From Clostridioides sp. ES-S-0010-02 (GTDB lineage: Bacteria > Bacillota > Clostridia > Peptostreptococcales > Peptostreptococcaceae), in contig CP067345.1 in the NCBI GenBank assembly GCA_020641055.1, positions 4,138,890 through 4,202,889 of the forward strand: a stretch of 64,000 bases of DNA, in the 5' to 3' direction. Numbering within the stretch: position 1 is the stretch's first letter; every line of letters begins with the position of its first letter. The position numbers were made by a program, and so were the translations under genes. Shown piece by piece: positions 25,144 to 58,413 of this stretch. The notes beneath the pieces were generated by a model. That model was given only the letters and a program-made list of their open reading frames with translations, did no database searches and had not been told where the DNA came from.

Positions 25144-26211
25144 TTAATTATTTAAATCTTTACTTATTTTTTCTAGCTTATTTAAAACTCTATCTTTCTC
25201 ACTTCCATCTAGTACTTTTGGTTGATAATTATTCCTAGAGCTGCTAGATGTTATTGCTGTTGGTATTATATTTGGCTCTTTAATTGAAGATAGTTTATTA
25301 TCTGAGAAGGTAAAGGTTTGTTGATATATATAGCTATCTGTATCAGAAGGATTCTTATTTCCTCCAAAACAAAAATTTCCTAAACTGTAAGCTATATACT
25401 TATCTTTATACTTTTCTATACCTTGAACTACATGAGGATGAGAGCCTATAACCAGGTCTGCACCATTATCTATTGCATAATGAGCAAAATCTTTTTGTTT
25501 TTTATCTGGAGAATATTCCAGTTCTATTCCCCAGTGAAAATAAACCATAACAACATCTGACTTCTCCTTTATGGCTTTAATATCATCTTCCATTTGTTTT
25601 AAGTTTTTTTCATTGTATTCAGTTGACAATCCATTATATCCCAATAAACCTACTTTAATTCCATTAACATCTATTACTGCGTCTTTACCTAAACCAAAAT
25701 AATTTATCTTATTTTCATCCAGTATGAACTTTGTATCTTTCATACCTTCTTCAAAATAATCCTCTGAATGGTTATTTGCAACACTTACTGCCTCTACACT
25801 TCCAGACTTCAAAATGTTTATATATTCTGGTTTGCCTTTAAATGCAAACTTCTTCTCTTTCGCCTTTGATGCATTAGTAAGAGGACCTTCTAAGTTAACT
25901 ACTGTTAAATCATCTTTTTCAAATATAGATTTTACATTTTTAAGAAAATAATCATAATCTTTTCCTTGTCTTTCAAATTCATGGTTGAAACTACCATAGT
26001 ATGATGAACCCTTATAGTTTCCCATAGTTACATCACCAGTAAAACTTATAGTTATATCTTGTTTTACAGGCTCTCTTTTTTGTTCTTCAACCTGACTTTG
26101 ATTATTATTAGAATCTTTTTTAATGTTATTTTCCTTCTCAGAATTATTAGAACACCCTACTACAAATAACAATAAACTCATAATACATATGTAAACTAAC
26201 TTATTTTTCAT
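25144..26211 (-). CDS. CapA/PgsA-family lipoprotein (metallophosphatase fold)
   Basis: A 355-aa lipoprotein with signal peptide and lipobox LLFVVGCSN (cysteine at residue 20), then a charged Asn/Lys/Gln-rich linker to about residue 52. The CapA domain has the metal-ligand motifs SFTGDVTMGNY near 56, NLEGPLT near 97, ANNHSEDY near 145 and IGSHPHVVQG near 236. CapA-like proteins are named for poly-gamma-glutamate capsule synthesis, but most clostridial ones have unknown function. No other capsule genes are adjacent. It is anchored outside the cytoplasmic membrane. Confidence 0.85.
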   Translation of the reverse strand: MKNKLVYICIMSLLLFVVGCSNNSEKENNIKKDSNNNQSQVEEQKREPVKQDITISFTGDVTMGNYKGSSYYGSFNHEFERQGKDYDYFLKNVKSIFEKDDLTVVNLEGPLTNASKAKEKKFAFKGKPEYINILKSGSVEAVSVANNHSEDYFEEGMKDTKFILDENKINYFGLGKDAVIDVNGIKVGLLGYNGLSTEYNEKNLKQMEDDIKAIKEKSDVVMVYFHWGIELEYSPDKKQKDFAHYAIDNGADLVIGSHPHVVQGIEKYKDKYIAYSLGNFCFGGNKNPSDTDSYIYQQTFTFSDNKLSSIKEPNIIPTAITSSSSRNNYQPKVLDGSEKDRVLNKLEKISKDLNN

Positions 26212-26681: not shown

Positions 26682-26730
26682 AAAGAGACTGGCTTAATTT
26701 GATTTTATCAATATTAATCAGTCTCTTTTA
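26682..26730 (+). terminator. Ferredoxin gene terminator
   Basis: AAAGAGACTG pairs with CAGTCTCTTT, followed by TATTTAT. It begins 16 bases after the ferredoxin stop. Confidence 0.85.
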
Positions 26731-26803
26731 TTTATAGCTTAATTGTATTTTATATTTTAGAATGATACTCTGATATATAAATAAATCAGTTTTAAATTAT
26801 TCG

Positions 26804-27005
26804 TTAAATATGACTCATTTCTAAGCTATTAATTTTAATATCACCTATATACCATATTCTATTTTCACAAGTTATATCTTGTTTTGCATCAAAAAAATTC
26901 AAATATAATCTATGAATATTACTATAAGTTTCTTTACATATGTTTATTTCTCAAGTCCACAGGATTCTTATTTTCTACTTTTCTATAAATAGCATATAAT
27001 ATGGA
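26804..27005 (-). pseudogene. Possible decayed coding fragment
   Basis: Within 570 otherwise gene-free bases, the minus strand carries two open stretches joined by a frameshift. About 22 codons, ending at a stop near 26938, are followed in another frame by about 48 codons, ending at TAA 26804 (contains HRLYLNFFDAKQD and RIWYIGDIKINS). The composition looks like protein rather than random AT-rich DNA. I do not recognise the family. It may mark the left edge of the accessory segment. The rest of 26731-27245 shows nothing. Confidence 0.3.
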
Positions 27006-27245
27006 GTTAAATATAAATCTAATATTTTTAAAAACTATTTTATATATTCAATACTCTTATACTTTACTTCTAAAAATATACACAATACTCTCATTACTCA
27101 AAACCTGATTTTTTATTATTTTAAAATATTTTTTAGTTTATTTGTTTTAGTTTTTTCAATAAAAAGGCATTGAACAGATATGTTATTATTTAAATATGTG
27201 TATTATCACAAGCTTATCTATTACAGGATGCTTATTTTGTATACT

Positions 27246-27298
27246 AAAAAGAGAGGCTCTATTGCATGATCTTTAAAACCATTTTGGAGCACTCTCTT
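27246..27298 (-). terminator. Terminator of the RiPP operon
   Basis: AAGAGAG and CTC pair with GAG and CTCTCTT across a 26-base loop. On the minus strand the hairpin is followed by TTTTTAGT. It lies three bases past the stop of the last ABC transporter gene and marks the 3' end of the operon. Confidence 0.8.
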
Positions 27299-27300
27299 CT

Positions 27301-29049
27301 CTATCCAATACCACATTCATATTCTTGTTCATTTAAAAAACTATAATAATATTTTCCAGTATTTATAAGTTCCTCATGAGTTCCCTCCTCTACAGATTTT
27401 CCGTCCTTGATGACATATATCTTGTCTACATTTTTTATTGTCGATAGTCTATGTGCTATAATTATAGTTGTTTTATTTTTCAAAAACTCATTTATATTTT
27501 TTAATATATCTCTTTGTGATATATTGTCCAATGCTGATGTTGCTTCATCAAATATCAATATTTTAGAATTGCTTAGCAACGCTCTTGCAATAGATATTTT
27601 CTGTTTCTGTCCTCCAGATAGTTTTACACCTTTCTCTCCAACTATAGTTTCAAAACTATTCTCAAGGTTACTTATAAAATCATACACATCGATTTTTTTA
27701 CAGATATACTCTACATCGTTTTTAGATATATTTTTATTCCCTAAAGTTAAATTGTTGAAAATTGTATCATCAAATAATAGTAAGTCTTGAGTTATAACAG
27801 ATATCTGTTTTCTTATATCCACTAAATTATAATCCTTTAAATCAACATCATCTACTTTTATACTTCCTTTATCAATATCCCAAAGTCTAAATATCAACCT
27901 AGCTATTGTAGATTTACCACATCCGCTAGATCCAACTAATGCAGTTGTTTTTCCATTTTTAAACTCTAAAGTTAGATTATCTATAGTCTTAATCTCATTA
28001 TCATAGGAAAATTCAACATTCTTAAATTCGATATTGCCTACAAAATTTTCTTTACACCTATTTCCATTATTATTTTGTTTTATAATTACTGGTTCATCCA
28101 ATGCATTAAATATCCTATCTATGGAGACTGATGCCTGTTGAATTCTAGTATTAGACTTAATTATACTTGTGCAAGGCATAATCAGCATACTTGTATATTG
28201 TTGAAATGCAATAAGTTCCCCTATACTCATTTCCCCCTTTATTATTTTTATTCCTCCATAACAATAAATTGATATTGTTATTAAACTGCTCAATATCATT
28301 GCTATTGAAATATTTGTTGAAATTATTGTATTGAGCCTTATCCATTTATCTACTATTCCTTTTTCTTTTTTTACATATGTTCTAAAAAACTTTAATACTG
28401 ATTTTGATATCACTATATTCATCATATTAGAAACATATTCTTGAACTAAGTTTGACACATCTCCTGAATCTGTTCTTATTTCTTTTGTCTTAAGTGCTAT
28501 TTTTTTTGTAAATTTCGATTGACTAAATATTATTACTATCTGAATTACTAAAACTATAAGTAATAAATCAAATCTAATATTAACTAAAAATACTAATGCC
28601 GAAAAAGCTGTTATAACATTTACAATCAAAGAAAATATCATTTCTATCCCAAAATTCTCAACTATAAATATGTCATTTTCTAATATGGTTAATATATTTC
28701 CAGATTTTATATTTGTGTAATAGTTGCCAGATAGTTTTGATAGATGTTTTAGTAGCTTTAATTTTAGATTTATTGTTATTCTTTTTTTCATCTTTGAATA
28801 TATATATTGTAGAGCTATTTCAGATAATGCCACGGTTATCTTTATTACAGAAAATACTATAACAAGCTTTATCAGCAATTCTACATTCCCTAGTTGTATA
28901 GCATCATCTAATATAATTTTTATCACTTGAGGAATTACTAAATCCAAAGCAGATATTGTCAATACGATAATAAATGCCATCATAATAACAACTCTATTAT
29001 TTTTAAAAACCATTCTTAGAAATTTCTTTATATTTTTTTTATTTTTCAA
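27301..29049 (-). CDS. ABC transporter, fused membrane and ATPase domains (peptide exporter type)
   Basis: A 582-aa half-transporter with six transmembrane segments in the first 310 residues and a C-terminal ABC ATPase. Walker A is GSSGCGKST near residue 370, the signature LSGGQKQK near 472 and Walker B ILIFDEATSALD near 492. I set the start at TTG 29049 because a GGGAGG box lies seven bases upstream; an ATG at 29076 has no such site. It lacks the N-terminal C39 peptidase domain of bacteriocin exporters, so leader removal must fall to another protein, probably the subtilisin-like protease encoded just upstream. It is the last gene of the operon and probably exports the mature peptide. Confidence 0.85.
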   Translation of the reverse strand: MKNKKNIKKFLRMVFKNNRVVIMMAFIIVLTISALDLVIPQVIKIILDDAIQLGNVELLIKLVIVFSVIKITVALSEIALQYIYSKMKKRITINLKLKLLKHLSKLSGNYYTNIKSGNILTILENDIFIVENFGIEMIFSLIVNVITAFSALVFLVNIRFDLLLIVLVIQIVIIFSQSKFTKKIALKTKEIRTDSGDVSNLVQEYVSNMMNIVISKSVLKFFRTYVKKEKGIVDKWIRLNTIISTNISIAMILSSLITISIYCYGGIKIIKGEMSIGELIAFQQYTSMLIMPCTSIIKSNTRIQQASVSIDRIFNALDEPVIIKQNNNGNRCKENFVGNIEFKNVEFSYDNEIKTIDNLTLEFKNGKTTALVGSSGCGKSTIARLIFRLWDIDKGSIKVDDVDLKDYNLVDIRKQISVITQDLLLFDDTIFNNLTLGNKNISKNDVEYICKKIDVYDFISNLENSFETIVGEKGVKLSGGQKQKISIARALLSNSKILIFDEATSALDNISQRDILKNINEFLKNKTTIIIAHRLSTIKNVDKIYVIKDGKSVEEGTHEELINTGKYYYSFLNEQEYECGIG

Positions 29050-29103
29050 AAGTTTACCTCCCAAGCATCTAAACATAACAAAACTTCATAAATAAAATAT
29101 TAT

Positions 29104-30120
29104 TCACACTTGTCCATTTATATTTAACTCAACAAGTTTTGTTAGAGTATGTACTGACACAAAGTCATATCTTGAGACATTTATGTATTCAATTTTTATA
29201 TTAAATTTCTCTTCCATTTTTCTTATTACACTGAAACAATTATGATCATTTAAACCAACTCTATTACTAAACAAATTATAATCATATATATCTTCACTCT
29301 TATTATCTATTTTTAATACTTCTTTCAAAGTTTCCTTTACACTTTTTAAAATATAATTATTACTGTCATATGGTTCAACTTTATTATCATAATATCTTTT
29401 ACTTGATAATAAGTCACTCTCAGACCATCTATTTTTTAATGCTAAAGATTCAAGTTCTTCATTCAAACCTTCCAATTCTATTTTGGGATATTTTGACATA
29501 ACCTTAGCTATTTTTCCTGTTAATCTAGCTGTAGCTTGGCTGTTGCTTTTCCCAAATAATTGATATGAGTTATTTAAACTACAACTTAAATAAGAATTGT
29601 TGTCTATTACACATTGTATGTCATAATCCTTATTGTACCAAAATGAATCCTTATTCTCTAAGATAAATCCTTTTACTCCTATTACATTATCAAATATACA
29701 TGGATAACTTGATTTATATCTATTTGCAAGTGAGCTTACTATTATTTTCCCATTTAAAAATAATTCTTTACATATACTATATAAATCACTTTGAAATTTA
29801 TTTTCCTTTATTGATAAGCTTAAATTTATCAACCTTATATCTGTTTTCAATATAAATTTTAATGCTTCTTCAAGAACTTGTATATTGCTTCTTCCTTGAC
29901 TATCCAATATTTTAATTGCAAATATATCTATATCTTTAAATTCTTTTTTTATTAGAGATGCACAAGCACTCCCATGACCATTATCATCACTGTATTCATC
30001 TCCAATTAATATATTTTTATCATTTAATATAAATGACCTTCCTCCAATTATATTTTCTTTTAAATAGTCATGTTTAATATCTATTCCAGTATCTAATATT
30101 GCTACTTTCACTCTGCTCAT
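29104..30120 (-). CDS. Subtilisin-family (S8) protease fused to an acyl-carrier-like domain
   Basis: A 338-aa protein. Residues 1 to about 215 form an S8 protease domain with Asp in VAILDTGIDIKHDYL, His in DDNGHGSACAS and Ser in KSNSQATARLTG near 193 (the usual GTSxAxP is altered). There is no signal peptide, so it acts in the cytosol. Residues about 262-333 follow the helix pattern of acyl/peptidyl carrier proteins (ETLKEVLKID, NRVGLNDHN, VIRKMEEKFNIKIEYINV, VHTLTKLVEL), but the phosphopantetheine serine is replaced (LNDHN instead of xDSL). It probably cleaves the precursor leader; the role of the carrier-like tail is unknown. It follows the ABC ATPase gene by 11 bases. Confidence 0.72.
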   Translation of the reverse strand: MSRVKVAILDTGIDIKHDYLKENIIGGRSFILNDKNILIGDEYSDDNGHGSACASLIKKEFKDIDIFAIKILDSQGRSNIQVLEEALKFILKTDIRLINLSLSIKENKFQSDLYSICKELFLNGKIIVSSLANRYKSSYPCIFDNVIGVKGFILENKDSFWYNKDYDIQCVIDNNSYLSCSLNNSYQLFGKSNSQATARLTGKIAKVMSKYPKIELEGLNEELESLALKNRWSESDLLSSKRYYDNKVEPYDSNNYILKSVKETLKEVLKIDNKSEDIYDYNLFSNRVGLNDHNCFSVIRKMEEKFNIKIEYINVSRYDFVSVHTLTKLVELNINGQV

Positions 30121-30131
30121 TGTAAAATCAC

Positions 30132-30797
30132 CTATTCTTTTATTTTCCCATCAATTATAGAAATAACTCTATCTGAAATTTTGGCAATATTATTATCATG
30201 AGTTACAAGAAGTAATGTTTTATTAAGCCTTTTAGTAGACATCTTTAAAAGATCTATAACTATATCGCTATTTTTACTGTCTAGATTTCCTGTAGGTTCA
30301 TCTGCTAATATAATGCTTGGAGATGTAGATAATGCTCGTCCTATAGCAACTCTTTGCTGTTGACCCCCAGATAACTGACTTGGAAGGGATTTCCTCTTAT
30401 CTTTAAGCCCAAGCATATCTATTAATTCGTTTATATAATTCTCATCAATTTTTTCTTTTCCCATTAACAGTGGAAGTTTAATATTTTCTTCAACTGTAAG
30501 TATTGGGATTAGATTATACTGTTGAAATACAAAACCAATTTTTTTCCTTCTATATTCTGACATAGTTATATCTGAAAATATATTTATATCCTTATTATCA
30601 ACAATTATTTTTCCAGAAGTAGCTCTCTCAATACCTCCTAATAAATAAAGCAATGTGCTTTTTCCACTTCCACTTGGACCCATTATTGATACAAATTCGC
30701 CTTTATCAATTTCAATATTTATATTTCTTAGAACTTCAACTCTTGATTCCTTTCTCCCATATATCTTGCACAAGTCTATTGTTTTTAATATATTCAT
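30132..30797 (-). CDS. ABC transporter ATP-binding protein (MacB/LolD type)
   Basis: A 221-aa ATPase with Walker A GPSGSGKST near residue 39, Q-loop FVFQQYNLIP near 90, signature LSGGQQQRVAIGRAL near 142 and Walker B IILADEPTGNLDS near 162. The length and motif set are those of MacB/LolD/BceA-type ATPases that pair with FtsX-like permeases. It lies 16 bases after such a permease gene. In a peptide operon such a pair often provides self-immunity or export (inference). Confidence 0.9.
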   Translation of the reverse strand: MNILKTIDLCKIYGRKESRVEVLRNINIEIDKGEFVSIMGPSGSGKSTLLYLLGGIERATSGKIIVDNKDINIFSDITMSEYRRKKIGFVFQQYNLIPILTVEENIKLPLLMGKEKIDENYINELIDMLGLKDKRKSLPSQLSGGQQQRVAIGRALSTSPSIILADEPTGNLDSKNSDIVIDLLKMSTKRLNKTLLLVTHDNNIAKISDRVISIIDGKIKE

Positions 30798-30813
30798 TTT
30801 TCCTCCTGTAACT

Positions 30814-33387
30814 TTATTCTACTCCATTTATACATTCAACCACACGTTTGCTTTTAATTTGCTTGAATTGCAAATGAGCAGTTACAGCTCCTATAATTAT
30901 ATTTACTGCTGTAATTAATATATAATCCCAATATAGTAGGCTAAATTCTATTCCTAAACTTGATACTCCACTATTGAGATATATTCTTTTCTGCAAAATA
31001 CATGATAATATAACGGTAACTAAACTTGACAATACTCCATAAGATATACCTTCATATACTATCATTTTATTTAAAATCTTTTGATTTGCTCCTATTGCTA
31101 TTAATATTCCAAATTCATTGATTCTTGAGATTATGCTATATCCTATATTATTTATCACATTTATAATAGTAATTATAAAAATTATAAATACTATTCCTGT
31201 ATTATAAATTTTGATTTTTTTATTTAATATCTCAACATCTTGTTTCTGCTTCACTATATTTGTCAATATTATTCTTTTAGCATTTGATTTTGATATGATT
31301 TTTGATATTTTATCTTCTATATTTTTATCATCTGCGCCTCTATCTAAGTTGATATTAACAGAATAATAATCATTTATACCTGTGCTAGCTTTAAATGTTT
31401 CCTGGTCGACAATAACATCCACGCTATTACTAGTTGTATTATACGCTTCATGCATATAATCATATGATACTATAGCTCCAACTTTAAATTGTTTATATAC
31501 ATATTCTGAATCGTAATCAGTTAATTTATAATACTTATCATCTATAATATTATCTTTCCTAAATTTTATACTAATTTCGTCACCAGGTTTTATATCTACA
31601 ACACTTTTTCCATTTACTTGTGGAACAGGATTTTTTCCATTTATTTGAGGGATATATACAATAGCCAAATTATTTTCTTTAATTTTATTTATATCTATAT
31701 TTCCTTCTATAATATAATCTTTCAATCTATTAAGAGCATTATCATTATATCCTCTAAAGTTGTTCTTTAAAATAGTCTCTTTTATTAATTTATCATTCAT
31801 CAAATACTCTTTTTTAGGAGTATCTTTATTATAATAATTTAAATCATTAAAATAATCTTTATTCAAAATTTTTATATTATTCATTATTAACTTTGAATAT
31901 GTAACTTGAGATGACTCTATATTTTTTACACCTTCAATTTTTTCTATCTCTTCTAAAATACTTTCATTTATTCCACTACTCTTATTATCATTGTATATAT
32001 TCATCATAAAATCAGAATTCATATGTAAATTAGAAAAATAAACTGGATATCTCTTCTCTTTTAGATACCCATTATAGTTCAATAGAACAAACATAGTTCC
32101 ACAAATACACATAGAAAGGATTATCATAAAAAAAGTTTTTTTATTTCTAAATATATTTTTAAGAGAAATTGCCTTAGAAAATTCTACAAACCTATTAAAG
32201 AAACTAAAACTAACAAAATTTCTTTCAAATACATTATCATTGCTTCTTTTTATCAAACTTATAATAGTATTGTTCATAATATTCCTACAAGTTAAAAAAG
32301 CTATTAATATTATAATAACTCCAATTGATAAGATTGATAAAATTATTATGTCTGCTGGAAAAATCAAACCTATTTTTATGATTTCACCATTTAATATAAA
32401 TTTTGTATTTATATTTTCACCTAATTTATAAAAAATTTTAGCTCCTAAATATCCTGTTATTATACCTATAGGTATCGAAATAAAATATAAAATTCTTAGT
32501 TCTTGTAATATAACTTTAAACATGCCATTTCTATTAGTTCCTATTGCTCTTAATACACCATATTCTCCCATTCTGTTATATATAGATATATTGAATATTC
32601 CATATATAACAATTCCACATATTAAACTTACTACTAAAACTATTTTAAACTTATTATAAATTTCTTTATTTTCTGATGTTTCTAAACCTATTAAATCATT
32701 ATGAGGTCTGATATTTTCCTTAGGGATGGAATTTTCTTTTGCTATTTTATTTATTTCATTGTTTATATCAATATTATTTTTAAATGCTATATATGTATTT
32801 ATTTTATCCATATTATACAAATCAAGTGGTAACATTAGTTCCATATTAGCAATTGCCTTATGACTCTCTCTATCTTTAATAATACCAACTATCTTGAATT
32901 TTTCTTTTTTAAATCCTTTTTTATCATCTTTAACTTTCAACTCAATTTCTTGATTAATGTCAGGTTTAATACTTAAATTTTTCAATACCCAACTTTCAGC
33001 AATCATTTCATTTTTTTTATTTGGAAATCTTCCTTTTATTATTTCGGAGTCGCTTTTTATATAATCTTCGTTTACTAAAGTGAGCTCAACTAATTGCTTT
33101 TCTTCTTTTGATGTTGAAGCATTGTATACTTTCAAACCCATGTTAGCTATATTAGCTTTATCTTCAATCCTTTTAATCTGTTTTTTATTCAAATCACTAA
33201 ATATTACATGATAAATTCCTTGAGTATACCTCATATTTTGTATTTCTGCATATCTTGTTGTCTCTAATAAACTTCCGATACCAACAATGAGAGCTATAGA
33301 AAGTATCATGCTTAGTACTATTGATATAGATCTTTTTCTATACATTTTTATATATTTTTTACTTAAATTAAAACAATCTTTATTCAT
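30814..33387 (-). CDS. FtsX-domain ABC permease with two large external domains
   Basis: An 857-aa membrane protein. One helix lies near residues 18-38, then a first external domain of about 200 residues. Three helices follow near 245-370 (first FtsX domain, with GEYGVLRAIGTNRNGM). Another helix near 415 precedes a second external domain of nearly 300 residues, and three C-terminal helices (second FtsX domain, with NEFGILIAIGANQKIL) end the protein. This is the 8-helix, two-domain layout of DUF214/LolC-type permeases. With the ATPase encoded next, it probably exports or expels a peptide. It begins about 108 bases after the precursor gene, beyond a stem-loop. Confidence 0.85.
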   Translation of the reverse strand: MNKDCFNLSKKYIKMYRKRSISIVLSMILSIALIVGIGSLLETTRYAEIQNMRYTQGIYHVIFSDLNKKQIKRIEDKANIANMGLKVYNASTSKEEKQLVELTLVNEDYIKSDSEIIKGRFPNKKNEMIAESWVLKNLSIKPDINQEIELKVKDDKKGFKKEKFKIVGIIKDRESHKAIANMELMLPLDLYNMDKINTYIAFKNNIDINNEINKIAKENSIPKENIRPHNDLIGLETSENKEIYNKFKIVLVVSLICGIVIYGIFNISIYNRMGEYGVLRAIGTNRNGMFKVILQELRILYFISIPIGIITGYLGAKIFYKLGENINTKFILNGEIIKIGLIFPADIIILSILSIGVIIILIAFLTCRNIMNNTIISLIKRSNDNVFERNFVSFSFFNRFVEFSKAISLKNIFRNKKTFFMIILSMCICGTMFVLLNYNGYLKEKRYPVYFSNLHMNSDFMMNIYNDNKSSGINESILEEIEKIEGVKNIESSQVTYSKLIMNNIKILNKDYFNDLNYYNKDTPKKEYLMNDKLIKETILKNNFRGYNDNALNRLKDYIIEGNIDINKIKENNLAIVYIPQINGKNPVPQVNGKSVVDIKPGDEISIKFRKDNIIDDKYYKLTDYDSEYVYKQFKVGAIVSYDYMHEAYNTTSNSVDVIVDQETFKASTGINDYYSVNINLDRGADDKNIEDKISKIISKSNAKRIILTNIVKQKQDVEILNKKIKIYNTGIVFIIFIITIINVINNIGYSIISRINEFGILIAIGANQKILNKMIVYEGISYGVLSSLVTVILSCILQKRIYLNSGVSSLGIEFSLLYWDYILITAVNIIIGAVTAHLQFKQIKSKRVVECINGVE

Positions 33388-33442
33388 TCAGCATCATGTC
33401 CTCCTTATGTCTCATATAATTAATATCATTTTGCATTTGATA

Positions 33443-33477
33443 AAAGTAATCATCTTATATAAAGATGATTACTTTTG
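33443..33477 (-). terminator. Intra-operon stem-loop after the precursor peptide gene
   Basis: A perfect 15-bp inverted repeat (AAAAGTAATCATCTT / AAGATGATTACTTTT) with a five-base loop. It lies 18 bases past the precursor stop and 56 before the permease start. On the minus strand it is followed only by a weak U-tract (TTTTATC). It probably acts as a partial terminator or as 3'-end protection, raising precursor mRNA over the downstream transporter genes. Confidence 0.7.
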
Positions 33478-33494
33478 TCATTTAAAATTTAATT

Positions 33495-33659
33495 TTACCA
33501 ATATTGACTTCCAAAATATGCTGGTTTATCGTCAGCTGTACAGTCATCCCAACAAGGTGCATAATAATTACCATCTGGATCTGCTTGTGTTGAGCAATCT
33601 CTACTTTGAGATAAAACTTCTACCTCTTGTTTGTCCTGTATTTTTTCTACCTTTAACAT
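33495..33659 (-). CDS. Putative RiPP precursor peptide (54 aa)
   Basis: A small gene between the second radical SAM gene and the transporter genes. A GGGGG box lies eight bases from ATG 33659; an ATG two codons upstream is too close to it. The 54-aa product has a polar leader-like start (MLKVEKIQDKQEVEVLSQS) and a C-terminal part with three cysteines (residues 22, 36 and 40) and seven aromatic residues. The middle holds NYYAPCWDDCTADD and the end is PAYFGSQYW. It fits a precursor of a thioether-linked or cyclophane-linked peptide made by the neighbouring radical SAM enzymes. I do not recognise the family. Position, size and composition support it; no homology is claimed. Confidence 0.72.
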   Translation of the reverse strand: MLKVEKIQDKQEVEVLSQSRDCSTQADPDGNYYAPCWDDCTADDKPAYFGSQYW

Positions 33660-33738
33660 ATACATTTCCCCCTTTTATAAATTTATAATTTATCTTAAAA
33701 TACTATGTGTATTTCAAAATCATAGCTATCAAATTTAT

Positions 33739-34758
33739 CTATATAAAGATATTTTTTATATTAAATTTATATCTCATTTTCTCCATAGCACATTGCATAG
33801 GAGGTGGTAAAAGATAATCTCCTGTAATTATTTTATTAATTATCTTACATCTAGCTCCATCACAGTACTGGTATAAATCGCATCCATTACACTCTGGATT
33901 TATCTTTTTAGAATAGCTCAATATTTTTTCTAGTTTATTTTCGTCCATCCCATCCTTCAAATTCCCTATACAAAATTCATTAATACCAACTGATAAAATA
34001 CAAGGATATAAGTTTCCATCAGGATCTATATCAAAGCCTGACCTTCCTCCAACACAACAGCTTTTTTTAAAGTGTAAATCTTTATCAAGTATACTGACCA
34101 CTACATTTTCTTTGTGTTCTAAATATTCTTTCAATTTTTTAACTTGAGCTTGTAATATATATAATGATTCCTCATCCCAATTTTTATCAAATAAATTTGG
34201 AGCTGGCACTATACATTTAAAGCCACCTTCAATCAGAAATTTAACATCTTCATATAAAGTTCTAACACTTTTACTATCAAATGTAGTTCTTATTCTCATA
34301 TTAGGAATATATTTAAGTATTTCATTTGCATTTCTTAATACTATATGATGAGTTCCATTCCCATTTTTAAACTGTCTGTTCATATCATGTGTTTCCCTAG
34401 CTCCATCAATGCTGAAAGTTATATTTTTAATATCTTTTATAATAAACTCTTTTATTTTTCTATTCATAATTGTTCCATTTGTAGTAGTTGCAAATGAAAT
34501 ATTTATACGGTTTTCATCCACTTGTCTTCTAAAACAATTTACTATATATTCAATTATTTCAAATGCTAAAAATGGTTCTCCTCCATGTATTGAAACTATT
34601 AATTCATTTGTATTTAATTTTTTAATGTAGTTCAACGTATAATTTATAGCCTTATCAATAACATTTTTAGACATGTATTTTTTAGCTTTATCCTGGCCCT
34701 CATAGCAATAATTACACTTCAAATTACAGTCATTAGTTACCCAAAATTTAACTATCAC
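33739..34758 (-). CDS. Radical SAM/SPASM peptide maturase 2
   Basis: A 339-aa radical SAM enzyme with the cluster motif CNLKCNYC (cysteines at residues 11, 15 and 18), GGEPFLAFEII near 62, and a C-terminal SPASM domain with CCVGG, GNLYPC, then CNGCDLYQYCDGARC near 287-301. I chose GTG 34758, which has a GGAGAGAAGG box six bases upstream and overlaps the stop of the previous gene by 11 bases. An in-frame ATG at 34836 lies inside that gene and has no ribosome binding site. It lacks its own recognition domain, so it may depend on that of enzyme 1. SPASM enzymes of this kind form thioether or carbon-carbon bonds in peptides. Confidence 0.85.
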   Translation of the reverse strand: MIVKFWVTNDCNLKCNYCYEGQDKAKKYMSKNVIDKAINYTLNYIKKLNTNELIVSIHGGEPFLAFEIIEYIVNCFRRQVDENRINISFATTTNGTIMNRKIKEFIIKDIKNITFSIDGARETHDMNRQFKNGNGTHHIVLRNANEILKYIPNMRIRTTFDSKSVRTLYEDVKFLIEGGFKCIVPAPNLFDKNWDEESLYILQAQVKKLKEYLEHKENVVVSILDKDLHFKKSCCVGGRSGFDIDPDGNLYPCILSVGINEFCIGNLKDGMDENKLEKILSYSKKINPECNGCDLYQYCDGARCKIINKIITGDYLLPPPMQCAMEKMRYKFNIKNIFI

Positions 34759-35992
34759 AACAAACCTTCTCTCCCCAAATTTCTTCAAATAATATTGGTC
34801 TGATTTTTTTACACCTTTTTTCAAAAACTCTTTCATTCTTAATTATTCTTTTAAATTCAGACATACAAGACCAGCAAAATAAACTAACTTCACAATTAAT
34901 ACAGTTTGATTGACTAATGTTATACAATTTGCTATTATCATATTTATTAGTTGTATCTTCTAAATTTTTGATTTCATTTAAATTACCTAGTCTATATTCT
35001 GACTTCATAAAAGATGGACAAGGATATATATCTCCATTGTATGTTATGAAAACTTCTCTTTTAGCTGCAGCGCAACTGAAAAATTTAATAGGTCTTCTGC
35101 TTTCTCTCTTTAAAAATTTGTCTGGAATCTTAAATTCTGAATCATTAGTTGTCAAAAATATTTCCTTACTATCTTTACCTCTTCCAATACTCATAAATCT
35201 TCTTATAATAGCTTTTGTTTTTAGTTTATCGCTTAATTCTCTGAACTTCTCTTCTATGTATTCATTTTTATCACCTGTTACTATAGATAAACTTATTTGA
35301 TGAAATCCATTGTTTTGTAGAAGTTTTACACTTTCAATAACCTTGTTAAAAATACCTTTTCCTCTTATAATTGAACATGTTTTTTCATCATATCCATCTA
35401 AACTTATATCAATTTGAGATGCACATTCAGCTAATATTTCTACATTTTCATTATTTATAAGAGTCCCATTAGTTGATATTATTATTTTTCCTTTGTAATG
35501 ATCTTTTAAATATTTTAATAGTTCTATGAAATCATTTCTAATCATAGGCTCCCCACCACTTAACATTATTCTTTCTGGATTCCATAAAATTAATTTGTCT
35601 AATATATCTTTCAATTCAGAAGTTGTTAAGTCTTCCTTTGTACTATTTTTCATACTATCTGCATCTATTCCACAATGGATACAATTTAAATTACATTTAT
35701 GTGTCATCTCAACTGAAGCTATTTTATTAGTGAACTCTGGTTTATTTTTTCCATCATCAAGTATTCCCATAAAAATTAGCTTTTTATATAGATTTTCAAT
35801 ATAATTCTTGTCCTCATCATCATACAGATTTAATTTTAATTCTTCTAATGAGATTTTATTCTCTATAGATGAATCCAATATATTGAAAACTTCTTGTGAT
35901 ATCCTTATCCATTGACCAGTTTTTGTATTCCCTAATACAACTTTATTGTTATATATAATTTTTTTACTATACTGACTAAATTCATATGTCAT
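34748..35992 (-). CDS. Radical SAM/SPASM peptide maturase 1 with N-terminal PqqD-like recognition domain
   Basis: A 414-aa protein. Residues 1 to about 80 resemble a RiPP recognition element of the PqqD type (GQWIRISQEVFNILDS, then ISLEELKLNLY). The radical SAM core has CNLNCIHCG near residues 99-107 and LSGGEPMIRNDF near 142. The C-terminal SPASM region has SCAAAKREVFITYNGDIYPCP near 300 and CINCEVSLFCWSC near 365. The domain order is that of sactipeptide and related maturases. An AAAGGGTG box precedes the ATG. It is the first intact gene of the operon and follows the decayed agr locus. Confidence 0.87.
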   Translation of the reverse strand: MTYEFSQYSKKIIYNNKVVLGNTKTGQWIRISQEVFNILDSSIENKISLEELKLNLYDDEDKNYIENLYKKLIFMGILDDGKNKPEFTNKIASVEMTHKCNLNCIHCGIDADSMKNSTKEDLTTSELKDILDKLILWNPERIMLSGGEPMIRNDFIELLKYLKDHYKGKIIISTNGTLINNENVEILAECASQIDISLDGYDEKTCSIIRGKGIFNKVIESVKLLQNNGFHQISLSIVTGDKNEYIEEKFRELSDKLKTKAIIRRFMSIGRGKDSKEIFLTTNDSEFKIPDKFLKRESRRPIKFFSCAAAKREVFITYNGDIYPCPSFMKSEYRLGNLNEIKNLEDTTNKYDNSKLYNISQSNCINCEVSLFCWSCMSEFKRIIKNERVFEKRCKKIRPILFEEIWGEKVCCDS

Positions 35993-36182
35993 AATATCAC
36001 CCTTTCAATAATTTAAAATTTTTTAAACTTATAAATGTTTGTTGGTACTTTTGATTGATATAATGTCTAAGCACAAGTTGAATTTGCTGATAGAAATATA
36101 ATTTTGCCACTGCTAATTTACCAATATTTCTTATATATCATATTTGATAATTTTTTCATACTTTAAAATTCTCCACATTACT

Positions 36183-36404
36183 TTAAATGCCTAAGATTAA
36201 CATTATAAAAATCCACATTATTGCTGATGATATATAAAAAGAATATTTATAAATTCGCTTTATATTTATACCTACAATAATAAAAAATAAAGATACAACC
36301 AATACATAAGTGCAAATTTTACAATTCTCATCGTTTATTGAGTTATTATAAAGCAAAATAGATGTTATCTTTTCAGCACATAATTTAATATTTTTTCTTC
36401 TCAA
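36183..36404 (-). pseudogene. Truncated AgrB-like protein
   Basis: An open frame of 73 codons from a TTG start. Residues 1-50 (CAEKITSILLYNNSINDEN, then a helix) resemble the N-terminus of AgrB. The next 23 residues (IYKYSFYISSAIMWIFIM) resemble its last helix. The central part with the catalytic histidine and cysteine, about 110 residues, is missing. It is downstream of broken agrA and agrC remnants, matching an agrA-agrC-agrB order. I infer a deletion derivative with no activity. No agrD precursor was found. Confidence 0.6.
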
Positions 36405-36477
36405 TTAAATTATTTTTATGCTTAAAAGATAACATCTATTATTAACTATTTCAATATCTATGCCCTAACAGGTCAAT

Positions 36478-36876
36478 TTAAAGCCCCAACAGGTATTTTT
36501 CTACATATTTTTTAACAGATTTTTCTACACTGTTTATACCTATTCCATGTGCAAACTCTTTTTTTTATTTCTTTTTGTATACTATCATCATCTATTTTTT
36601 TACATGCTTCTATTGCATTGTCACTTATATTAGAAATATTAAACTAACAATAATTCTCATAAATAATTTTATATTTATAGAAGTACTTATAACATTTGAC
36701 ATGTTCACATAATTAAAAATAGCGCACAAAGACATAAGTATTAAAAAGGAAATTAGTACAAACATTTTGTTTTTCTAATGTAAAAAATTTCATCTAATAA
36801 AAATTTAAATACCAAACATTCTATTACTATTGTCAAAATATCTATTGTATTGTCAGAATAAGTCATTCTCTAACAT
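36478..36876 (-). pseudogene. Decayed AgrC-like sensor histidine kinase
   Basis: Starts with a GGAGGA box and ATG 36876 but is broken by stops and frameshifts. Recognisable pieces in order are a first membrane helix (ILTIVIECLVFKFLLD), two further hydrophobic stretches, the kinase N-box SDNAIEACKKIDDD, and the G-box segment AHGIGINSVEKSVKKYVEKY, ending at TAA 36478. Both ATP-binding boxes are typical of the AgrC/HATPase_c_5 type. Only about 130 codons remain of a usual 430. The dimerisation histidine region is gone. Confidence 0.7.
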
Positions 36877-36919
36877 AGCGTCTCCTCCAATACATAAGAT
36901 AACTTATCTTTTAATTTCT

Positions 36920-37277
36920 TTAATTATGCTTACTTACAGGTATATTATCACTATAAATTGAAATCACACCTTTTTTTAAATACTCAATCTGCTTTAGATT
37001 GACTAAAAAGCTTTTATGACATCTAAAAAAATTATGAGTTTCTAATTCTAGCTCCATTTTCCAATACTTTTCCTAATCTTGTAGTCCTTATATCTAGTAT
37101 GTATTGTTAAATTTTTTCTATCAATTTCTATGTATGTGTTATATCATTAATAAAAATTTTATTTATTTCTCCATTATTTGTAACTACTATAAATTTTTGC
37201 AAATTCTCTCTTATCTTTTTAAGACAATTTAAAAGATAAGTCTCTAGTTCATCATCACATATAACTATTTTATACAT
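36920..37277 (-). pseudogene. Decayed AgrA-like LytTR response regulator
   Basis: AAGGGGAGAG and ATG 37277 open a frame reading MYKIVICDDELETYLLNCLK, a receiver-domain start. It then jumps, by loss of about 110 residues, to the LytTR DNA-binding domain. The rest runs through three frames: KFIVVTNNGEINKIFINDI, then YIEIDRKNLTIHTRYKDYK, then THNFFRCHKSFLVNLKQIEYL, ending VSKHN at TAA 36920. At least two frameshifts and one large deletion make it non-functional. It is adjacent to agrC and agrB remnants and was probably the regulator of that locus, possibly of the RiPP operon too. Confidence 0.75.
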
Positions 37278-37393
37278 AAAAAGTTTCTCTCCCCTTATTT
37301 CAATCTATAAACTAATCTTAATAATAATTATGCACAAATTATATATACTTTTTTAAATTTAAGTTATTCTATATCATAAATATTTTTCAAAAC

Positions 37394-37467
37394 AAAAATG
37401 CTATCTAATAACGTTAAAAATTTAAGTATCCATTTAAATTTTTTGCTTAATGTTAAAAATATAGCAT
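37394..37467 (-). terminator. Terminator after the FmdE-family gene
   Basis: ATGCTAT pairs with ATAGCAT around an inner AAATTTAA/TTAAATTT hairpin. On the minus strand it is followed by TTTTTGTTTT. It lies 34 bases past the stop at 37501 and separates fmdE from the decayed agr locus. Confidence 0.65.
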
Positions 37468-37500
37468 CTTATCTTTTATACATAATTTTAAATTTTTTTA

Positions 37501-38040
37501 TTAATCTTCTTCATAAAACCTTTCATATTTACTAAAACAATCAAGACATACTTTTTTTGTATTTTGAATTCTTATATATTGCTCAGGTGCAAACTCTCCA
37601 CACACTTCACATTTAAGAGACTTAAATATTCTTGCCTTTTCTGGAAGTCTTAATTTTGTGTCTGTAATTTCAAATATATCTTCAAATTCACTTTCCAATA
37701 AGTATTTTTTATACCCTTCTCTATCCATATCAAATGGTTTTGACTTTACATATATTCTTATAGACTTTCCATTTTCCCTATTAAAAAAATGGTATACTGA
37801 TTTCCCTGTCATTCTAAGCAGCAAATTCCCTTTACCCATTGTACAACTTAATACAACTTGTATACCATCTATTCCACATGCATCATTTTCAGAAATACAT
37901 ACAATTTCCTCATCTCCTGATTGTTTACATCCTAAATATTCTCTTGCTGCAAGTGCCGCTTTAAATCCTATAGCTAAACCTGGACATTCATGACCATGAA
38001 ATTCAATTGCTTTTTTCCATAATTCCTCCACAAAACTCAC
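37501..38040 (-). CDS. FmdE-family protein with C-terminal zinc finger
   Basis: A 179-aa protein related to subunit E of formylmethanofuran dehydrogenase. The family motif FHGHECPGLAIGFKAALAA lies at residues 13-31 and ENDACGIDGIQVVLSCTMGKGNL near 52-74. The C-terminal zinc finger has CEVCGEFAP and CLDCF near 144-168. In bacteria outside methanogens the role is not established; metal or molybdopterin-linked functions have been suggested. It starts 139 bases downstream of rex on the same strand, beyond a terminator. Confidence 0.8.
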   Translation of the reverse strand: MSFVEELWKKAIEFHGHECPGLAIGFKAALAAREYLGCKQSGDEEIVCISENDACGIDGIQVVLSCTMGKGNLLLRMTGKSVYHFFNRENGKSIRIYVKSKPFDMDREGYKKYLLESEFEDIFEITDTKLRLPEKARIFKSLKCEVCGEFAPEQYIRIQNTKKVCLDCFSKYERFYEED

Positions 38041-48792: not shown

Positions 48793-50214
48793 TCAAACAT
48801 CAAAATTCAAACAAGTTTCAGGTTCATCTTCTATTTTTGCTATTTTAAACTTACATGCAATTAATGCTAGAGATACCAATGGATTTATGATATTTAATAA
48901 TGCATATGGACCATACGTTAATGCAGATACACCTAATGTTGCTGTTATATACGCTCCACATGTATTCCATGGTACCAATGGAGAACTTAAAGTTCCACTA
49001 TCTTCTAAAGCTCTTGATAACATCTTAGGATGTATACCTCTCTTTTTATATTCCTTATTATACATTCTTCCTGGTATAACTATAGACAAGTATTGTTCTC
49101 CTGCTATTATGTTAGTAACTGTGCAAGTTACCATTGTACATAATACTGTTCCAAATACACCCTTTGCTAACCTTAGTAAAGAAGAAGCTACTGCTTCAAG
49201 CATGCCTGTTTTTTCTAAAATACCTCCAAGAGATAAGGCACATATTGTTAAAGATACAGTAGACATCATATTCATAATCCCACCTTTAGACAATAAAGCA
49301 TCTACCTCTTCTACTTGTGTTGATGAAACATATCCATTTTGTGCTGCATCTAATATTACATTCATAGATTCTCCTTGGAAAACTACTGCAAACAATACTC
49401 CTAATACAGCACCTACTATAAGCCCTGGTATAGCAGGAACTTTGAATATAACCAATCCAATTACTATTGCTGGAGCTAATAATAATACTGGTGATAAAGT
49501 ATTAAATGTAGAATCTAATGTAGACCTAATTAGCTCTATCTGTTTTATATCTAATGCTTGACCTGAATACTTCATTCCGATTACACCATAAATTACTAGG
49601 CAAATTAATAATGATGGTATAGTTGAATATAACATATATTTTATATGTGTAAACAAATCTGTTCCTGCCATTGCTGGTGCTAAGTTAGTCGTTTCAGATA
49701 AAGGTGATAGTTTATCTCCAAAGTAAGCTCCAGATATTATAGAACCCACTATTAATCCAGTTGGCATACCTAAACTTTGCCCAATTCCTAAAAGTGCCAC
49801 GCCTACTGTACCCATTGTACTCCAAGATGACCCTGTTGCAAGAGACACTATTGAGCAGACTAATGTGGATGCTACTAAAAAAATATTTGGTGATAAAATT
49901 TTTAGTCCCCAGTAAATCATACATGGAACTACTCCACTTACTATCCAAGTTCCTATAAGCACACCTATTATAATTATGATTAAGATTGCTTGCATTGCCA
50001 TCTTTATACTATTAAACATACTTAATTCTAGGTCTTTCCATTTAAATCCAAGCCTATATACAGCTACAAGGCCTGCTACTGCTGCAGCTCCTATTAGTGG
50101 TACATGAGGTGATGAGCCATACATTAATACCCCTAAACTTAAAAATAATATCAAGCAAGTAATTGGTATCATTGCATCAAACAGATTTGCTTTTCTACAT
50201 TCTCGCTCTTTCAT
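48793..50214 (-). CDS. NhaC-family Na+/H+ antiporter or related carrier
   Basis: A 473-aa membrane protein with about eleven helices. ATGSSWSTMGTVGVALLGIG near residue 127 and GAYFGDKLSPLSETTNLAPAMAG near 162 are the NhaC hallmark motifs. NhaC-type proteins exchange Na+ for H+, and some swap malate or amino acids. It is the last gene of the ornithine operon, 30 bases after orr, so it may import ornithine or export a catabolic product (inference). Confidence 0.88.
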   Translation of the reverse strand: MKERECRKANLFDAMIPITCLILFLSLGVLMYGSSPHVPLIGAAAVAGLVAVYRLGFKWKDLELSMFNSIKMAMQAILIIIIIGVLIGTWIVSGVVPCMIYWGLKILSPNIFLVASTLVCSIVSLATGSSWSTMGTVGVALLGIGQSLGMPTGLIVGSIISGAYFGDKLSPLSETTNLAPAMAGTDLFTHIKYMLYSTIPSLLICLVIYGVIGMKYSGQALDIKQIELIRSTLDSTFNTLSPVLLLAPAIVIGLVIFKVPAIPGLIVGAVLGVLFAVVFQGESMNVILDAAQNGYVSSTQVEEVDALLSKGGIMNMMSTVSLTICALSLGGILEKTGMLEAVASSLLRLAKGVFGTVLCTMVTCTVTNIIAGEQYLSIVIPGRMYNKEYKKRGIHPKMLSRALEDSGTLSSPLVPWNTCGAYITATLGVSALTYGPYALLNIINPLVSLALIACKFKIAKIEDEPETCLNFDV

Positions 50215-50243
50215 AAAATAATTTCCTCCTAATTATTTGAACA

Positions 50244-51308
50244 CTATACTATAATTTTCTTTGAAACATATTCGCTTGTACTAGATGACATGATACCTCC
50301 ATAAGTTAATAAAAAATCTACATTGTCGCCTAATTTATAATCACATTTTGTATTACTTACATCTAATATCATGTGGTCTGAACTTGCCCCTAATATCTCT
50401 ATATCAGTGTCTATTGGAATTAAAGAGTCAATATTTATGTCCTGCTTACCTATGGCTATAATTGCCCTTTTTAAGATTCCTTTATCTTCATAAACAGGTT
50501 TATTTCTAAACGCATCAACTCCTATTTCTCCAATAGGAACTGATGGTTTTTCTTTACATTCAACTATTTGACATATTAATTTGAATACATCTTGATATGT
50601 CCCATTTATATTTTTACCGTATGCCGTTTCTCTACCAAGTAAAATAGATTCACCTATTCTCAAATTATTAATACCTTCTGGCATATTATTACTTGTCATT
50701 AAATGTATAGAACTTGAATTACCTCCTGATACTATTTCTAGATTTATTCCAAATTTACCTTCTATCTTTTGAGCTATACTTACTAGCCTACCTGTATTTT
50801 CTTTAGATGGTATAATAGCTCCATAACAAGTTAAGTTTGTAGCTATACCAATTATTTTAATATTTTTTAGTTTTACTATCTCTTTTATACTATTAAAGAG
50901 GTCTTCTTCATAAAAATACCCTTCTCGTAAATCTCCTAAGTCAAACATAAGAACTATATTATGAATAATATTTTTACTTTCACATAATTCATTTAATTTC
51001 TTTATAGTTTCTAATTCTGAGTTAAAACTTATATCACAATAATTGATAACTTCTTCTAGTTCACTTATCATGGGTATTCTAATTAGTATTTTAGGTAAAT
51101 TTATATTTTGTAACTTTTTTAAGTTTTGTATTCTTGAATCTGCTATATGATCTATTCCTTCATTATATACTGCTTCTACTATTTCTTTTCGTGCACAAAA
51201 TGATTTAGTTACGAAAGATACTTTAATGTTTCTTTCATGACAACTCTGTAAAATTACTTTAGCATTATGTCTTAATTTTTCTATATCTATTTCTAATCTA
51301 GGGTACAT
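50244..51308 (-). CDS. orr: Ornithine racemase (alanine racemase-fold, PLP)
   Basis: Interconverts L- and D-ornithine, the first step before the aminomutase, which needs D-ornithine. A 354-aa PLP protein with the N-terminal barrel of the alanine racemase family; the lysine in VSFVTKSFCARKEI near residue 34 is the expected cofactor site. The ID rests on its place in the ornithine cluster. Its ATG has a GGAGG box and overlaps or3 by 16 bases. Confidence 0.88.
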   Translation of the reverse strand: MYPRLEIDIEKLRHNAKVILQSCHERNIKVSFVTKSFCARKEIVEAVYNEGIDHIADSRIQNLKKLQNINLPKILIRIPMISELEEVINYCDISFNSELETIKKLNELCESKNIIHNIVLMFDLGDLREGYFYEEDLFNSIKEIVKLKNIKIIGIATNLTCYGAIIPSKENTGRLVSIAQKIEGKFGINLEIVSGGNSSSIHLMTSNNMPEGINNLRIGESILLGRETAYGKNINGTYQDVFKLICQIVECKEKPSVPIGEIGVDAFRNKPVYEDKGILKRAIIAIGKQDINIDSLIPIDTDIEILGASSDHMILDVSNTKCDYKLGDNVDFLLTYGGIMSSSTSEYVSKKIIV

Positions 51309-54906: not shown

Positions 54907-55274
54907 GATTCTACCCCTTCTCTAAATAAACATGTAACTTCATCCCAATATTCACCATTAACTAATAATAAACCAGCTTCTCTAACTGATATATTTTTAG
55001 ATTTAGCAAGCTTATAAACTACATGCCCTGCTCCCTTACCTATAAGACCTCTTTCCATAACACCTTCTAAAATAGGTTTTACCTCAAGAGAAGAAAATCC
55101 CATTCTTAACAAAACAGACCTTTCTATTGATGGTGTTGTATTCTTTTTGCCAAGGTCTATCATTGGTTCTACTATCTGGGCAGCTAAACTCCAAAATCTT
55201 TCTTTTAACTCATCATCGCTCAATTTCTGAAGATGTTTTCTTCTAACCTCAAAATCATCCTCTCTTTTTTTCAT
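54900..55274 (-). CDS. oraS: D-ornithine 4,5-aminomutase, small subunit OraS
   Basis: A 124-aa subunit partner of OraE. It is mostly charged and helical (RRKHLQKLSDDELKERFW near residue 10) and matches the small family size. I chose ATG 55274, seven bases from a GGGGGA box; ATGs further upstream overlap that box. It lies 77 bases downstream of ortB and overlaps oraE. Confidence 0.94.
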   Translation of the reverse strand: MKKREDDFEVRRKHLQKLSDDELKERFWSLAAQIVEPMIDLGKKNTTPSIERSVLLRMGFSSLEVKPILEGVMERGLIGKGAGHVVYKLAKSKNISVREAGLLLVNGEYWDEVTCLFREGVESC

Positions 55275-55351
55275 GAACATTCCCCCATTCATATTAATTT
55301 AAGTGAATTTTCCAACTATTCATTTCATGGTAAATTAAAAAATAGTAATTA

Positions 55352-56782: not shown

Positions 56783-57083
56783 TATATACACCTCCAAATA
56801 ATATTTCTTTAGCCTGTATTCCTATTTGGAGTAACTCAGGTATACATTTACCATAATCATGAGTATAATATGGATTTACTTTAAGTAAATTACCTTTTAC
56901 AAGTCTACCCGTAATTGTTTTAACTTCTACTAAATCACCTATAGAGGCATCCTTTTGTATAAACCCTTTAACCCACATTTCTAAGGATACTTTCTTAGTA
57001 TCCTCTGGAACTTGTGGAGCTCTTTCTTCTGGAGTCAACACTATATTGTGTATAATAACCCAATCATTAATTTTAGCATCCAT
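56775..57083 (-). CDS. ortA: 2-amino-4-oxopentanoate thiolase, alpha subunit
   Basis: A 102-aa subunit of the OrtAB thiolase. The short beta-rich protein (INDWVIIHNIVLTPEERAP near residue 6, YTHDYGKCIPELLQIG near 74) is of usual family length. It lies 35 bases after ord and overlaps ortB. Confidence 0.94.
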   Translation of the reverse strand: MDAKINDWVIIHNIVLTPEERAPQVPEDTKKVSLEMWVKGFIQKDASIGDLVEVKTITGRLVKGNLLKVNPYYTHDYGKCIPELLQIGIQAKEILFGGVYNE

Positions 57084-57117
57084 TTTTTCATCCCCTTATC
57101 AGCTAACTGTTATTTTA

Positions 57118-58185: not shown

Positions 58186-58228
58186 ATATACACCCTCCTA
58201 AAAATTTATATTCTTAATTATTAGTTAA

Positions 58229-58244
58229 AGCATGAATCGTGCCA
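58229..58244 (-). promoter_or_regulatory. Sigma-54 promoter of the ornithine operon
   Basis: On the minus strand TGGCACG-ATTC-ATGCT: GG-N10-GC spacing is exact and only one base departs from the -24/-12 consensus (A instead of T in TTGC). It lies about 45 bases upstream of the ord start, beside a sigma-54 activator gene. Confidence 0.8.
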
Positions 58245-58344
58245 ACTTCAAAACAAAAATAAATATTTATTAGAACGTTGAAACTATAATTATCTTGTTA
58301 TGTATTTTCATAAATAAAAAATAATATTTTTTCTGAGAAACAAA

Positions 58345-58370: not shown

Positions 58371-58413
58371 ATAATAATTTTGCGCCTTTATTTTTCTTTT
58401 TTATTTTACTTCT

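Follow-up and report, generated by a model that had tools for sequence, protein, structure and literature searches.

The 64,000-nucleotide stretch analysed here (the window) comes from contig CP067345.1 of Clostridioides sp. ES-S-0010-02, a member of the Peptostreptococcaceae whose 4.26-Mb genome forms one contig. Positions 27301-35992 of the window hold a block of seven genes, and this block is one member of a family of clusters for ribosomally synthesized and post-translationally modified peptides (RiPPs). Its identity as a RiPP cluster is nearly certain, and we think it probable that the block serves to make, trim and export a peptide cross-linked by radical S-adenosylmethionine (SAM) enzymes, and to protect its producer from that peptide. 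The seven genes encode two radical SAM/SPASM maturases (rSAM1 and rSAM2), a precursor peptide, an FtsX-type permease and its ATPase, an S8 protease, and an ATP-binding cassette (ABC) exporter. All seven open reading frames (ORFs) lie on the minus strand, as do the other features of the cluster and its regulatory remnants located below, and none has an internal stop. A first-pass annotation, made from the sequence alone, had placed seven same-direction genes at these positions and had read them as a RiPP operon with two maturases, a leader protease, an exporter and likely immunity. Every one of these ORFs is present and intact, and that reading is still the best one, supported by 16 recurrent clusters elsewhere.

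Recurrence of the cluster family

The 16 further clusters, which sit in genomes of the family and on three clostridial plasmids, each combine both maturases, the S8 protease and the ABC exporter with a precursor-like small ORF, the precursor of one genome (G201) being weak (E 0.014). This count leaves out clusters on cut contigs (L056, L042), clusters from other families or only distantly similar (L173, L176, L060, L075), degraded ones (L043, L169, L170), and loci without maturases (L039, L045, L343). A precursor profile built from 12 precursors gave 22 matches at E up to 0.01, in 13 of 71 family genomes, and an rSAM2 profile matched 14 of the 71 at E up to 1e-60. Both profiles matched in 12 genomes (hypergeometric P 9e-11), a test that is not fully blind because six of the 13 precursor-positive genomes had contributed rows to the precursor profile. 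In the seven non-contributing genomes (G183, G205, G147, G162, G159, G087, G221), rSAM1, rSAM2, the protease and the exporter are found at the precursor locus without exception. The one genome with a precursor and no rSAM2, G199, carries a degraded cluster.

The pairing of small peptide and enzymes, which the first-pass annotation had treated as decisive, is also seen from the side of the enzymes: a precursor-like ORF is present at the locus in all 14 genomes with a close rSAM2, in 12 of them by the genome-wide precursor profile and in G104 and G201 by a looser local search. Thus, what is expected of a RiPP locus in general was found here, namely a small precursor beside modifying enzymes, recurrence of this arrangement, a conserved leader and a variable core.

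Similar clusters occur more distantly. When 80 genome-contig loci and 160 viral-contig loci were screened for the protease together with a maturase, four were recovered. Three are distant similar clusters with weak precursors (E 0.04-4), namely L060 (a Eubacterium metagenome-assembled genome), L075 (Paenibacillus bouchesdurhonensis) and L176 (IMG/VR); the fourth, L110, also from outside the family, has a maturase, an S8 protease and an exporter, and no precursor match. L175 holds maturase pieces only. In a profile search of genome contigs with the rSAM2 alignment, the matches listed (80 loci, which may not include records close to the window genome) comprised only distant maturases of at most 32% identity. 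Among plasmid records, rSAM1 has six matches: three are Streptomyces mftC genes, two belong to Paraclostridium sordellii, and one is the C. difficile plasmid pTW11. The IMG/VR locus (L176:1-14339) has eight weak precursor-like ORFs of the VEVQYCDPDDC type around two maturases; the locus also encodes an S8 protease, two FtsX-ATPase pairs and an exporter that is split.

Precursor, maturases and proposed leader protease

The precursor gene (33495-33659), which matches the family precursor profile, encodes 54 residues. Our own reading of the ribosome-binding-site spacing favours its start at 33659 over that of a 56-residue ORF, and the precursors of relatives, which begin MLKI or MIKI, support this choice. 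The peptide is predicted to consist of an 18-residue leader, ending in EVEVLSQ, and a 36-residue core that contains the motif C-W-D-D-C (33540-33554). The family form of this motif, C-x-x-[DN]-C, is present in 30 of 31 aligned precursors, 28 of them with Asp, where shuffling expects 0.79 per set; since the rows are related, the 30 are not independent observations. The sole precursor without the motif (L043) belongs to a degraded locus. The leader is more conserved than the core, although one near-invariant acidic residue sits within C-x-x-D-C, and many cores carry a Tyr or Trp near the C-terminus. Some clusters hold tandem precursor copies: two in G192 and G205, three in G232 and four in G183. 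At the leader end, [LVIM]xxQ is found in 25 of the 31 precursors. Its strict form, (D/E)(L/V)xxQ, described in a review as the recognition motif of the cytoplasmic S8 leader protease ElxP (PMC10885120), is found in 16, at the leader end in 15 and elsewhere in L173, against 0.95 expected from shuffling. The set of 31 excludes a G205 copy identical to one of G183, the weak G199 match (C14, E 0.003) and, among the eight L176 ORFs that resemble precursors, five.

The first-pass annotation could match the precursor to no named class, and no curated precursor model matches it either: the window peptide hits none of the NCBIfam families at E up to 10 and no Pfam model. The NCBIfam 'lachnocin' family is matched weakly by two of the 31 precursors (best E 0.0083). 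Comparison of the precursor profile with the PDB gave no meaningful match, and a tblastn search of the plasmid collection with the window peptide gave none at E up to 1; the peptide of L036 matched its own record alone. We found no description of this precursor family in the open-access literature, an absence that is weak evidence, as most subscription journals lay outside the scope of the search.

Both maturases, rSAM1 (34748-35992, 414 residues) and rSAM2 (33739-34758, 339 residues), match the Pfam models Radical_SAM and SPASM, as their earlier description as radical SAM/SPASM enzymes implies; rSAM1 scores 94 and 25.8 bits, and the SPASM match of rSAM2, at 18.9 bits, is under the cut-off of 21.5. 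The rSAM2 gene itself stands, and only its start has to be moved. The ORF reaches an ATG at 34836, but relatives and a ribosome-binding site favour a GTG at 34758 as the probable start, which overlaps the end of the rSAM1 gene. In rSAM1, C100, C104, C107 and seven C-terminal cysteines are invariant in 13 of 13 aligned rows. The best NCBIfam model for rSAM1 is that of the mycofactocin maturase, with 115.6 bits against a cut-off of 265, and rSAM1 is thus not a member of that family.

At its N-terminus rSAM1 has an extra domain of about 90 residues, possibly a leader-binding domain. The first-pass annotation had called a PqqD-like recognition domain in one of the maturases, and this we could not confirm: the Pfam PqqD model (PF05402) matches none of 13 rSAM1 proteins at E up to 1, and the same model does find two other proteins of the window genome, in open frames of 460 and 119 residues. 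A profile-profile comparison has no power in either direction, because its positive control, PqqD against the N-terminus of a SCIFF-type maturase, reached a probability of just 3.7%. The alignment to the SCIFF maturase model does extend into the N-terminal part of rSAM1 (residues 36-225).

For rSAM2, the best of 82 models is NCBIfam PapB, by a wide margin (196.8 bits, the next model scoring 150.5), and the best PDB profile match is 5wgg (172.5 bits). PapB is reported to link Cys to side-chain carbons of Asp or Glu, tolerating 0-6 intervening residues (PMC9413430). The window core resembles its product freyrasin, a ranthipeptide with Cys-Asp thioethers, in having Cys and Asp close together. It is unlike freyrasin in having C-x-x-D-C in place of six C-X3-D repeats, and the window operon adds a second maturase, an S8 protease and an FtsX-ATPase pair to an rSAM2 that falls below the PapB cut-off. 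By analogy, Cys-Asp cross-links are a fair guess.

Other bonds have to be weighed. The product might instead be a sactipeptide-type or C-C cross-linked RiPP, with Cys sulfur joined to alpha-carbons or with ring side chains joined to one another. The StsB maturase model also matches rSAM1 over residues 15-408, the aromatic residues near the C-terminus of many cores would suit this chemistry, and the presence of two unlike maturases hints at modifications of two kinds. However, the StsB match, at 99.3 bits, is far under the cut-off of 625, PapB leads the models for rSAM2 by the margin given above, and the near-invariant acidic residue lies within C-x-x-D-C itself. We therefore regard this alternative as rather unlikely, and Cys-Asp thioethers as the preferred assignment.

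The S8 protease (29104-30120, 338 residues) matches Peptidase_S8 from residue 3 onwards, too near the N-terminus to be preceded by a signal peptide or propeptide. A secreted protease was rejected for lack of room for a signal peptide, and the cytosolic location first proposed for the enzyme is upheld. All 17 aligned S8 proteins retain the catalytic triad (D10/H49/S194) and are matched by the NCBIfam model QhpE, the best of seven for the window protease (97.7 bits). In the qhp pathway of quinohemoprotein amine dehydrogenase, QhpD is reported to make Cys-Asp/Glu thioethers; cytosolic leader removal by QhpE comes next, and QhpF then acts as the exporter (PMC7876137). The window block is like qhp in uniting radical SAM cross-linking, a cytosolic subtilase and ABC export in one operon, and in having a protease nearest to QhpE, a likeness absent from the first-pass annotation. 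It is unlike qhp in that this protease is under the QhpE cut-off and has a carrier-like tail, and in that the proposed product is a small peptide; the best family matches listed for the seven genes include no dehydrogenase subunit, which places the block outside Qhp. A further likeness, drawn from motif and description and not from sequence comparison, is to ElxP, the epilancin protease, also a cytosolic S8 leader protease, whose motif the window leader end fits; ElxP differs in serving a lanthipeptide pathway. The cluster appears to work like PapB combined with the leader and export logic of qhp, and by curated cut-offs it is a member of neither.

The carrier-like tail of the protease, also called in the first pass, survives in a weakened form. 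Its best E-value among acyl carrier protein (ACP) families is 7e-4, and ACP models match the tails weakly, any one model reaching at most 5 of 17 proteins. The expected DSL serine is lacking: in 16 of the 17 proteins the phosphopantetheine motif DS[LIVM] does not occur within the final 95 residues, and the lone instance (L056) lies near the C-terminus, with none at the carrier site. The exporter (27301-29076, 591 residues) is a fusion of permease and ATPase that matches ABC_membrane (93 bits) and ABC_tran (110 bits), and it has no C39 peptidase among its 12 listed Pfam families, as first described.

With matches accepted at E up to 1e-15, 30 of the order's 297 genomes hold relatives of the S8 protease, and phage records gave just two partial S8 matches. 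Another S8 protease, a paralogue whose tail is of the same type (L048:9968-11008, G000:C1:595991-596983; also L044, L046, L047 and L049-L055) occurs in all eight genus genomes and in three of another genus, away from matching maturases. A LytTR response regulator gene is present at 11 of these 11 loci. The L048 copy lies beside valS and a Mur-ligase (folC-like) gene, both identified by Pfam; neighbours at the other loci were judged from ORF sizes. The S8 tree places the paralogues in a group of their own, moderately supported (87/98).

Two other named systems were compared. The window peptide does not match the 'lachnocin' peptide model NF038169, rSAM2 scores 64.6 bits against a cut-off of 550 for the corresponding maturase model NF038170, and the name was not found in the open-access literature searched. 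The thuricin-CD-like cluster CD0159-CD0163 of C. difficile strain 630 likewise has two radical SAM-like genes, an ABC transporter and a two-component regulator, with a proposed 67-residue precursor containing CTIMCPYTC (PMC3132745). It was rejected as the identity of the window cluster on the basis of its description, in which the precursor motif is C-X3-C-X3-C, in contrast to C-x-x-D-C, and the gene set differs; the section describing that cluster mentions no S8 protease.

Insertion, graded loss and regulation

The block is part of an insertion of about 10.7 kb (approximate ends 26740-37470) that carries the whole cluster. It is flanked by a PGA_cap-type lipoprotein gene (25144-26211) and by an FmdE-like gene (37501-38040), which keeps its name from the first-pass annotation and has no NCBIfam match. 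Eight genomes, one per species and the window genome included, represent the genus. The gap between the two flanking genes is 636, 627, 628 and 628 bases in G093, G195, G144 and G104, compared with about 11.3 kb in the window, 7.8 kb in G087 and 6.3 kb in G109. In the four genomes with short gaps, blastn places the junctions at window positions 26729-26744 and 37466-37479, and in G099 the junction is at 26736/37482, with 80 bases between and the PGA_cap gene partly missing. The site is therefore empty in five of the seven other genus genomes, and the suspicion of an accessory insertion is borne out by the comparison of flank synteny. The insert has a GC content of 24.6%, compared with 28.2% and 26.9% in flanks of about 10 kb.

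In the two remaining genomes the site is occupied by subsets of the same genes. That of G087 (L039) keeps FtsX, ATPase, protease and exporter, with agr remnants, and has neither maturases nor peptide; its retained genes are 96.6% identical to those of the window at the nucleotide level, and the flanks 88-93%. That of G109 (L343) keeps only FtsX and ATPase, plus agr sensing genes; maturases, peptide, protease and exporter all went unmatched there. It has an intact LytTR regulator (236 residues) and an AgrC-like frame that stops early and then stays open for 434 codons. Elsewhere in G087, a further locus (L045, G087:C154) has an S8 protease, an exporter and an FtsX-ATPase pair, with no maturases and no precursor match, and adjoins a two-component system and another FtsX-type transporter.

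This pattern of loss bears on the permease (30814-33387, 857 residues), which has two FtsX stretches (Pfam FtsX, 81 bits), and on its ATPase of the LolD/FtsE type (30132-30797, 221 residues; ABC_tran 126 bits, LolD 226 of 307.75 bits), matches that agree with the first-pass call of an FtsX permease with its ATPase. The pair is proposed as a likely means of self-protection of the producer. FtsX matches accompany 14 of the 16 relatives' clusters, weakly in G159 and in three pieces in G232, and in G109 and G087 FtsX and ATPase have outlasted the maturases and the peptide, which fits self-protection. The retained genes, protease and exporter included, are under constraint, with ratios of nonsynonymous to synonymous substitution (dN/dS) of 0.06-0.16. 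On pTW11, an extra, divergent gene for a lipid II flippase, MurJ, adjoins the cluster (L038:10173-11696), its product being 39-43% identical to the copies in eight genus genomes. No FtsX match was found in the 25 kb examined of that 42-kb plasmid, and the MurJ gene, a single case, is a possible hint at target or immunity.

Upstream of the cluster, at 36016-37277, lies a decayed agr quorum-sensing locus in several frames, which the first-pass annotation does not mention. Searches by tblastn with the agr proteins of relatives located remnants of AgrD, the autoinducer precursor (36016-36159, over 48 residues, E 1e-8), AgrB (36162-36389, E to 9e-9), an AgrC-type sensor kinase (36505-36851, fragments in several frames, E to 1e-8) and a LytTR response regulator of the AgrA type (36926-37277, several frames, E to 3e-14). 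That is, the window cluster has remnants beside it and no intact agrBDCA. Among the relatives, agr-type kinase or regulator genes or their remnants are found at no fewer than 12 of the 16 loci (11 by BLAST, and G192 (L040) by Pfam AgrB and GHKL) and AgrB at no fewer than six, both counts being lower bounds as unmatched ORFs were scanned in part. The locus is complete in some relatives, and all four agr genes are present in L036, L037 and L167. The decay implies that expression in the window strain would be constitutive, silent or driven in trans, and control in trans is possible since the window genome encodes four other strong AgrC-type kinases.

Two stem-loops were found in the block. One, just 3' of the precursor gene (33438-33480), folds at -19.4 kcal/mol, with z -5.0 relative to 200 shuffles, and is possibly an attenuator or a stabiliser of the mRNA. 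The other, directly 3' of the exporter gene (27246-27301; z -3.1, equalled in 2 of 200 shuffles), is a possible transcription end. A scan of the region for consensus terminators found none, at neither stem-loop. The promoter scan gave 105 sites, with 98 expected, and Rfam and tRNA scans of the window had no matches.

With its agr cassette lost, the cluster might simply be decaying and make nothing in the window strain. The scattered frames of the agr remnants suit this view, as does the partial loss of the same kind of cluster in G087, G109, G199 and a second G099 locus. It sits poorly with the seven intact frames, the ribosome-binding sites before peptide and rSAM2, the hairpin and the kept gene order, and the well-matching kinases elsewhere could act in trans. 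We consider an inactive block improbable.

Farther along the window, positions 48793-63989 hold amino-acid fermentation genes, apparently those of ornithine degradation, and the window edge has a glycyl radical enzyme that closely resembles 4-hydroxyphenylacetate decarboxylase.

Proposed pathway and its meaning

In the pathway that we propose, the 54-residue precursor would be made as leader plus core, and rSAM1 and the PapB-like rSAM2 would then modify the core, most likely within C-x-x-D-C, where Cys would form thioethers to Asp side-chain carbons like those in the products of PapB and QhpD. Next, in the cytosol, the QhpE-like protease would remove the leader by cleaving after Gln18 (EVEVLSQ|SRDC); cleavage after this Gln is, from the leader alignment, a good guess. 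The carrier-like tail, having no phosphopantetheine serine motif, may dock the peptide or a maturase. The C39-less exporter, as counterpart of QhpF, would secrete the product, plausibly an antibacterial one, and the FtsX permease and its ATPase would protect the producer.

Several observations count against parts of this scheme. By curated standards rSAM2 does not reach PapB membership, its 196.8 bits being below the equivalog cut-off of 340, and the protease is similarly below the QhpE cut-off of 165. The Gln is absent from the leader end in six of the 31 precursors, and the strict ElxP motif in 16. In G087, two loci (L039 and L045) retain protease and exporter but no maturases, so these two proteins may have other substrates. 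There they are constrained like FtsX and ATPase, and the constraint may predate the loss, so dN/dS does not single out immunity. By BLAST, two of the 16 clusters, those of pTW11 and G201, have no FtsX match. Lastly, there is the broken agr cassette, and a possibly silent cluster.

We consider a role other than antibacterial, as secreted signal or as redox cofactor of the mycofactocin kind, unlikely: mycofactocin maturase is indeed the best model for rSAM1 and agr-type genes or remnants are common near the relatives' clusters, but against this stand the FtsX matches in 14 of 16 clusters, the FtsX-ATPase pairs that outlive the maturases in G109 and G087, the variable cores and the tandem precursor copies. 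For a cross-linked, putatively antibacterial peptide, we would tentatively go further. It is possible, if doubtful, that these clusters constitute a new RiPP class of Bacillota, marked by precursors with C-x-x-D-C, by two SPASM maturases of which one is PapB-like, by a QhpE-like leader protease whose carrier-like tail has lost the serine for its prosthetic group and turned into a peptide-docking module, and by a product that may act on cell-wall precursor transport. The last element comes from pTW11, where a cluster with no FtsX match has a MurJ gene beside it.

If the proposed pathway is right, this clostridial family and some plasmids carry cross-linked peptides, often quorum-linked, that the curated models searched do not name. 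Such products could act on close relatives of their makers, and the genomes that keep the FtsX pair without the biosynthetic genes would make self-protection directly testable.

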